From Lentisphaerae bacterium GWF2_49_21 (GTDB lineage: Bacteria > Verrucomicrobiota > Lentisphaeria > Victivallales > GWF2-50-93), in assembly GCA_001804805.1 (NCBI GenBank), contig MHBH01000025.1, positions 1 to 32,858 on the forward strand: a stretch of 32,858 nucleotides of DNA, in the 5' to 3' direction. Under the pieces are notes generated by a model, which saw only the letters and a program-made list of their open reading frames with translations, made no database searches and was not told the origin of the DNA. The translations under genes and the position numbers were made by a program. Within the stretch, counting starts at the first letter, position 1. Every line of letters starts with the position of its first letter. Positions 5,944-30,491 of this stretch are shown piece after piece.

Positions 5944-5978
5944 GCTGAAGAACAGCCCTCACGGGATGTTTTAGAAGT

Positions 5979-6041
5979 AGGGACGGGCTTTAGCCTGTCC
6001 CTTTCTTGAAGGCAAAGATGGTACATGCTAGAGCACGTACC
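5979..6041. repeat. Two adjacent imperfect hairpins before the SulP gene
   Basis: Hairpin 5979-6002 has an 11-bp stem (one G-T pair) around a TT loop and reads through GGGCTTTAGCCT. Hairpin 6020-6041 has GGTACATGC against GCACGTACC with one mismatch. A 7-bp outer pair (AAGTAGG at 5975 with CCTACTT at 6040-6046) could replace them. They fill the gap between the ligase gene and the SulP gene. The palindrome style, with a central CTTTAG or CTAG, recurs at 14700-14767. Confidence 0.6.
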
Positions 6042-6098
6042 TACTTTAAGAGACAATTTATATAAGAAGATAACAGGACGAGCTACTGGTAAATTGAC

Positions 6099-14525: not shown

Positions 14526-14598
14526 GCGCGAGCGTAACTTGATACTCGATACTTGAAAGTTGTGATTTAAAGGAGCGCTGGCCTCTGGCCGGCATTCT
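14526..14598 (+). repeat. Composite 3' element, copy A (after moxR)
   Basis: Six 7-bp units start on the base after the TAG: GCGCGAG, CGTAACT, TGATACT, CGATACT, TGAAAGT and TGTGATT (14526-14567). TAAAGGAGC and a hairpin GCTGGC-loop-GCCGGC follow. Positions 14537-14596 match the reverse complement of 30414-30473 at about 56 of 60 bases, and a looser copy lies at 27359-27468. In all three the element directly follows a stop codon, reading in the gene's direction. Confidence 0.85.
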
Positions 14599-14699: not shown

Positions 14700-14767
14700 G
14701 TTGGAGTACAAACTTTAGTTTGTCTTTGTATTCAAGAGGCTATGCAAGCTAAAGCTTGTACTCCAAC
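14700..14767. repeat. 22-bp inverted repeat with TTTAG-type palindromic arms
   Basis: GTTGGAGTACAAACTTTAGT at 14700 onward pairs with 14746-14767 at 20 of 22 positions. Each arm is itself palindromic around CTTTAG or CTAAAG. It lies in the moxR-DUF58 gap, 51 bp before the DUF58 start. A degraded left arm with the same order of motifs is visible at about 27489-27527, also downstream of a composite element. The intervening 14599-14699 is AT-rich with nothing recognisable. Confidence 0.7.
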
Positions 14768-27361: not shown

Positions 27362-27468
27362 CTGGCAACTGGATACTGGAAATTCGGAATGTGTGATTTG
27401 AAAATTAAAGGAGCGCTGGCTTGTCACGTCATAGCTTCTCAGCGACGACGGACGTCCAGCCGGCAATT
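27359..27468 (+). repeat. Composite 3' element, copy B (after the URO-D-family gene)
   Basis: The first heptamer, TAACTGG, contains the stop codon itself. CAACTGG, ATACTGG and AAATTCG follow, then a five-base remnant and TGTGATT at 27392-27398. After AAAATTAAAGGAGCGCTGGC a longer hairpin region closes with GCCGGCAATT (to 27468). It is a diverged relative of copies A (14526) and C (30414) in the same orientation relative to its gene. Confidence 0.75.
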
Positions 27469-27566
27469 GCTTCTGATGATTTAAATTAGTTGGAGTTCAC
27501 AGCTTTAGCGTGTCTTGTATTCTCATCCTTTTTAAAAAATTCTTTGAATATCTTTATTCCTGGTTA

Positions 27567-30413: not shown

Positions 30414-30491
30414 ATTGCCGGCAAGATGCCAGCGCTCCTTTAAATCACAAGTTTCAAGTATCGAGTATCAAGTATCCAGCATCCAGCATCA
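30414..30491 (-). repeat. Composite 3' element, copy C (after the ACT gene)
   Basis: Read in the ACT gene's direction, seven contiguous heptamers run TGATGCT, GGATGCT, GGATACT, TGATACT, CGATACT, TGAAACT, TGTGATT. The stop codon TGA is the first three bases of the first unit. TAAAGGAGC and the hairpin GCTGGC-ATCTT-GCCGGC follow. The 60 bases 30414-30473 match copy A after moxR with about four differences. Confidence 0.88.

Follow-up and report, generated by a model that had tools for sequence, protein, structure and literature searches.

Nearly the same 60 bases follow moxR and a gene for an ACT-domain protein in the window (the whole stretch of 32,858 nucleotides analyzed here, which is contig C25 of the 5.9-Mb genome G000), raising the question of what kind of element recurs at the ends of these genes. 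Positions 14537 to 14596 agree with positions 30473 to 30414 of the reverse strand at exactly 56 of 60 bases, as proposed in the sequence-only reading, and the next-best ungapped match to this unit in the window is 36/60. The third, looser copy proposed after a URO-D-family gene was also found, as a long-loop version, and all three hairpins are present, each in the direction of the preceding gene. The hairpin belongs to a genome-wide repeat family, here named F1, and the preferred explanation, with a probability of about 0.85 from sequence comparison, is that F1 is a REP-type palindrome spread through the genome by a Y1 (RAYT) transposase. The kind of element is known; what is unusual is the tag at its start, the lack of a transposase partner and the 7-base repeats alongside.

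Copy 1, on the forward strand, consists of a heptamer array with units CTTGATA, CTCGATA and CTTGAAA (14538 to 14559), the linker TTGTGATTTAAA (14560 to 14571) and the F1 palindrome itself (14572 to 14593), which has a GGAGC head, a 7-bp stem (GCTGGCC/GGCCGGC), the loop TCT and a C-G closing pair. Copy 2, on the reverse strand, has an array that begins where the ACT-domain gene ends, at its stop codon (30451 to 30489), the linker TTGTGATTTAAA (30439 to 30450) and a palindrome with the same TCT loop and an A-T closing pair (30417 to 30438). Copy 3, on the forward strand, starts with a short degenerate array after the URO-D-family stop codon (27362 to 27391), followed by a linker containing TGTGATT and AAATTAAA (27392 to 27409) and a long-loop palindrome whose outer stem, GCTGGC/GCCGGC, encloses an inner hairpin (27410 to 27464). 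The TTAA-like part of the copy 1 linker is common to the F1 family, but TGTGATT is not: of 85 sampled copies, just the three in the window have TGTGAYT in the 50 nt upstream. TGTGATT was therefore dropped as a general part of the element and rejected as a motif (CRP-like half-site). Weaker instances had also been suggested at 1119 to 1189 and 2209 to 2251; these are unrelated hairpins (CCAATTGC..GCAATTGG; TCCGCC..GGCGGA) without the GGAGCGC core. Rfam gave no match at gathering score in the window.

The pattern GGAGCGCYRGC-N3-33-GYYGGC has 142 matches in G000 versus none in the reversed control, and the core AAAGGAGCGCTGGC occurs as 15 exact copies, with no match in the reversed control. Other F1 statistics come from 1.6 Mb of G000 stretches chosen partly for F1 matches or Y1 genes, a choice under which F1 density is biased, whereas results on orientation, covariation and upstream versus downstream position should be unaffected; gene calls for these stretches come from a simple codon-usage script rather than a standard gene finder. 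The family consensus is TTAAn-GGAG-C-GCYGGC-N-TCY-N'-GCCGGC-AAT, of about 30 nt, and 81 of 85 sampled copies are intergenic. The 5-nt loop NTCYN' is found in 71 of the 85 pattern matches, and nested long-loop versions, of which copy 3 is one, place a second hairpin within the first, often with the closing pair kept. Head (GGAGC) and loop (TCY) hardly vary, with GGAG in 70/70 aligned copies, where the search pattern imposes it. Downstream of the stem come A (97%), A (82%) and T (66%), the 5' flank near the head favors T (74%), A (61%) and A (62%), and the three bases before GGAG are AT-rich and variable.

Base pairing provided further evidence. In an alignment of 70 copies, the loop-closing pair is GC in 30, AT in 28, CG in 10, TA in one and mismatched in one, so that it takes all four Watson-Crick forms and is paired in 69/70 copies, and the fourth stem pair is either GC (62) or AT (8). 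Both positions are fair evidence of covariation, because the search pattern placed no constraint on the loop bases and also accepted mismatches at the fourth pair. Double-sided changes were observed in 47 cells, compared with 10.9 (standard deviation, 6.0) after shuffling, and pairing is abolished when the partner strand is slid out of place. In the 7-bp stem next to the tag, 99.8% of cells are paired, which agrees with the palindrome required by the Nunvar definition of REPs. Covariation thus bears out the proposed selection on the stem, and the compensatory changes for which a search had been advised do occur. The accompanying view that the loop varies while the stem is kept needs amendment: bases at the loop ends do differ between copies, but they do so in a base-paired way.

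The placement of F1 bears on a rival explanation, namely, that the hairpins are selected transcription terminators or stabilizers of mRNA 3' ends, spread by selection at gene ends. Single copies, which number 61 in the sampled stretches, start a median of 50 nt past a stop codon and, in tandem intergenic regions, run in the sense direction by 31:4 (P = 3e-6); convergent regions are enriched for F1 (20/60 versus 107/752), and a T-rich tail follows 20/61 (33%) in the forward direction versus 3/61 (5%) in reverse and 12% in random background. Nevertheless, such a role is unlikely to account for the family, as most stems are followed by AAT rather than a T run and a terminator would not need a near-invariant GGAGC head and TCY loop. 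In addition, the remaining 20 of 81 copies form about 10 closely spaced inverted doublets, typically with one CCGGC arm and one CCAGC arm, and show no orientation bias (9:9), so that the suggested fixed orientation to the upstream gene is strong for singles and absent for pairs. Bracketing of RAYT genes by F1 in distant genomes, described below, and the native gene-end hairpins of sister genomes, which differ in sequence from F1, also argue against it. Singles probably favor the sense direction at 3' ends because they are tolerated there or were later put to use as weak hairpins at transcript ends. Replication strand has no effect, as judged from local GC skew (43 leading versus 38 lagging). 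A far weaker candidate, with very little probability, is that the copies are alike by chance or arose when a single intergenic region was duplicated locally: the two best copies agree at 35/38 upstream bases and lie on the same contig, but the 142 genomic matches against none in the control and the mutually unrelated genes flanking F1 copies do not fit a local event.

REPs in the canonical sense are defined by a GT[A/G]G tag (PMC3686654, PMC6006769), and the GGAG of F1 departs from this element of the Nunvar definition. Non-GTRG tags are, however, accepted in some classes (PMC6006769), and F1 has the features of the broad REP definition, namely, a conserved tag directly 5' of C plus the stem and, in copy number, 142 matches with a largely intergenic distribution. 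F1 resembles the “REPtrons” formed by REPs and RAYT/TnpA-REP genes (PMC2817692, PMC3686654, PMC6006769, PMC8266576) in being an intergenic palindrome of high copy number that has a short loop and, on its 5' side, a tetranucleotide tag, and the likeness extends to RAYT genes bracketed by inverted copies and to one REP family per RAYT. It differs in having GGAG for GT[A/G]G, no cognate RAYT found in G000, nested long-loop versions and heptamer arrays at about a quarter of single copies. The inverted pairs, with their short distance and their CCGGC and CCAGC arms, resemble REPINs (Bertels and Rainey, PMC3116915), but singlets predominate in F1, which is not typical of REPIN populations. Tagged palindromes are also known in the PVC superphylum, e.g., in Opitutus (PMC3733652), but these carry GTAG or CGTC, whereas F1 has neither tag, and GGAG is absent from the text of that paper. 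In 13 sampled cases (e.g., L095, L105 and L162), F1 is followed within 3 to 17 nt by a REP of a second family, F2, on the same strand, forming mosaic, BIME-like compounds.

A Y1/RAYT gene had been predicted in the same genome, and G000 contains 21 Y1 loci, 20 with Y1 domains detected by Pfam and one detected by protein search, which has its own flanking palindromes. About ten Y1 genes are each flanked by a repeated palindrome of their own in inverted copies (REP-RAYT pairs at L085, L086, L094, L120 to L123, L144, L159, L161 and L164), and the families bracketing their own RAYT are F2 (GTRGYACAGGC), F3 (GGAGTTCACAGC), F4 (GGAGTACAARC), F5 (GTAGTTAAGCC), F6 (GTAGTAGCGCA), F7 (GTAGGTACG), F8 (GGCGGGCTTTCC), F9 (TTTGGACTGCG) and others. 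F1 brackets none of the 21 (0/21) in Pfam and protein searches of this genome, which is 95% complete, with C54:15 at a contig end. An inverted F1 pair at C26:35070-35799 (L119:15070-15799) brackets a small gene pair resembling a toxin-antitoxin module and was rejected as a RAYT bracket, as no RAYT is present.

F1-bracketed RAYTs were found elsewhere. Inverted F1 copies flank a RAYT in a Bacteroidales MAG from the rumen (L224) and in G360, a PVC member of the same phylum (L288), and a 93-aa remnant that is truncated at the 5' end and starts at the HUH motif lies directly between inverted F1 copies in G001 (L307), which belongs to the same genus as G000. Both the L224 protein and the remnant in G001 score above the cutoff of NCBIfam NF047646, “REP-associated tyrosine transposase.” The suggestion that a RAYT recognizes the hairpin is therefore supported indirectly, by these other genomes and by the Y1 loci of G000 that have REP families of their own, and lacks an F1-bracketed counterpart in G000. 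A second RAYT of G001 (L276) was rejected as the F1 cognate, as its REP is GGACCGCCGGC..., a related family. In the tree, F1-linked RAYTs group with those of F2, C76 and L276, with branching within the clade unresolved, and the loop NTCYN' is common to F1 and F2.

GGAG heads occur with RAYTs in G000, since F3 and F4, both GGAG headed, each bracket their own RAYT. These two RAYTs are sisters (100/99) and lie beside the RAYTs of the GTAG-tagged F5 and F6; the tag therefore seems to change within RAYT clades. Tags of the GTAG, GGAG and GGAC types coexist on related RAYTs in G000. The window itself contains copies of other families: an inverted F4 pair (GGAGTACAARC..) lies at 14703 to 14764 between moxR and a DUF58 gene, its RAYT being at C32:183623, and further REP-type copies at 2060 to 2157, 5977 to 6044, 27492 to 27512 and 2307 to 2316 include an F9 pair (TTTGGACTGCGGC), an F7 pair (GTAGGTACG), a single F3 (GGAGTTCACAGC) and the GGAGTGCGCA family, with its RAYT at C67:98964. 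At C76:59000-61100 of G000 (L160), a predicted ORF of ~740 aa runs in frame into a RAYT; its N-terminal half resembles, by eye, a type I restriction specificity subunit, and the RAYT is duplicated, with in-frame REP copies (SRAGARRSQEEME repeats).

Relatives lack the element at the window sites. Array and hairpin are both missing after moxR in G001, where the protein is 93% identical at the amino acid level, at the ACT site in G001, G002 and G003, and at the URO-D site in G001 and G003. A conserved regulatory element was rejected on this basis, and absence at all three sites points to recent gain of F1, loss in every relative being a possible but less simple explanation. At two other sites (L013/L030 and L012/L033), judged from the flanks, the hairpin has apparently been kept between same-genus genomes. 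F1 is abundant in G000 and G001, and its core is also present in G003, but F1 was not found in G002 or other sampled members of the order. Of 388 genomes sampled across the phylum, nine others carry F1 at low copy (11 in total with G000 and G001). Among the matches listed in a scan of public genomes, most were from Lentisphaerae and from SZAS-13, an Acidobacteria MAG, and other sources gave single matches.

A further alternative is that the entire 60-nt unit of array, linker and hairpin is one composite mobile element, with the array as a functional or mechanistic part. The association of arrays with F1 is real but partial. Period-7 arrays are predominantly intergenic in sampled G000 (113, versus 15 in coding sequence; period 8 is next, with 43), and they lie within 80 nt upstream of 17/61 (28%) single F1 copies, compared with 5/61 downstream, 5.4% of distance-matched gene-end positions and 0 to 4% for F4 to F9 REPs. 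Array register relative to GGAG is the same in 8/15 cases (P of about 0.003, corrected for seven phases), upstream flanks of several F1 pairs match at 28 to 35 of 38 bases, and the upstream bias recurs in four other genome groups (11 upstream, 2 downstream). Other periods upstream of F1 were not seen at 5, 6, 9, 10 or 11 and were seen once at 8. The joint absence of array and hairpin at the three window sites in relatives also fits a composite. However, most F1 copies have no array, 138/169 arrays are not beside F1, unit sequence varies between arrays, the TGTGATT linker is confined to three copies and only 1/20 inverted-pair copies has an array. CTTGAWA-type arrays that lack F1 likewise start at stop codons, in gene sense and usually within a few bases. 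What stands of the proposed composite is therefore a partly fixed register at a minority of single copies, and a composite element is improbable, though less so than the terminator explanation. The heptamer array is a separate repeat carried 5' by some F1 copies. The nearest published likeness, the TAACTGA heptamers of Beggiatoaceae (PMC4679880), also consists of seven-base tandem units between genes, but that unit is fixed and found mostly just before start codons, whereas G000 arrays have degenerate, varied units, those of the CTTGAWA type being mostly just after stop codons. A more specific and more doubtful version is that array and REP replicate as one unit, a RAYT-type enzyme moving or repeatedly nicking the GGAG hairpin while the 5' flank grows into a period-7 array; if true, bacterial heptamer arrays would be a by-product or cargo of REP activity.

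Under the preferred explanation of F1 as a REP-type palindrome, single-stranded F1 DNA would fold into a tagged hairpin, of which the GGAG guide and hairpin would most likely be recognized by a Y1/HUH tyrosine transposase of the RAYT (TnpA-REP) type. The enzyme would cut beside the hairpin and copy F1 to new intergenic sites, singly or as inverted pairs (REPINs). We infer these steps, as well as any effects on transcripts, from sequence. The cognate RAYT would since have been lost from G000, and F1, best described as a REP variant with a GGAG tag, is probably orphaned in this genome, in keeping with a published model of REP populations that persist after loss of their RAYTs (PMC3686654).

The findings extend tagged-REP biology to GGAG guides in Lentisphaerae. 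About ten REP-RAYT pairs in one genome, with GTAG and GGAG on closely related RAYTs, amount to a natural experiment in the reading of the guide tetranucleotide. F1, as a large REP population whose transposase has apparently been lost here and is truncated in a sister genome, may serve as a test of REP decay after RAYT loss, and its nonrandom tie to 7-base arrays offers a handle on this class of repeats.
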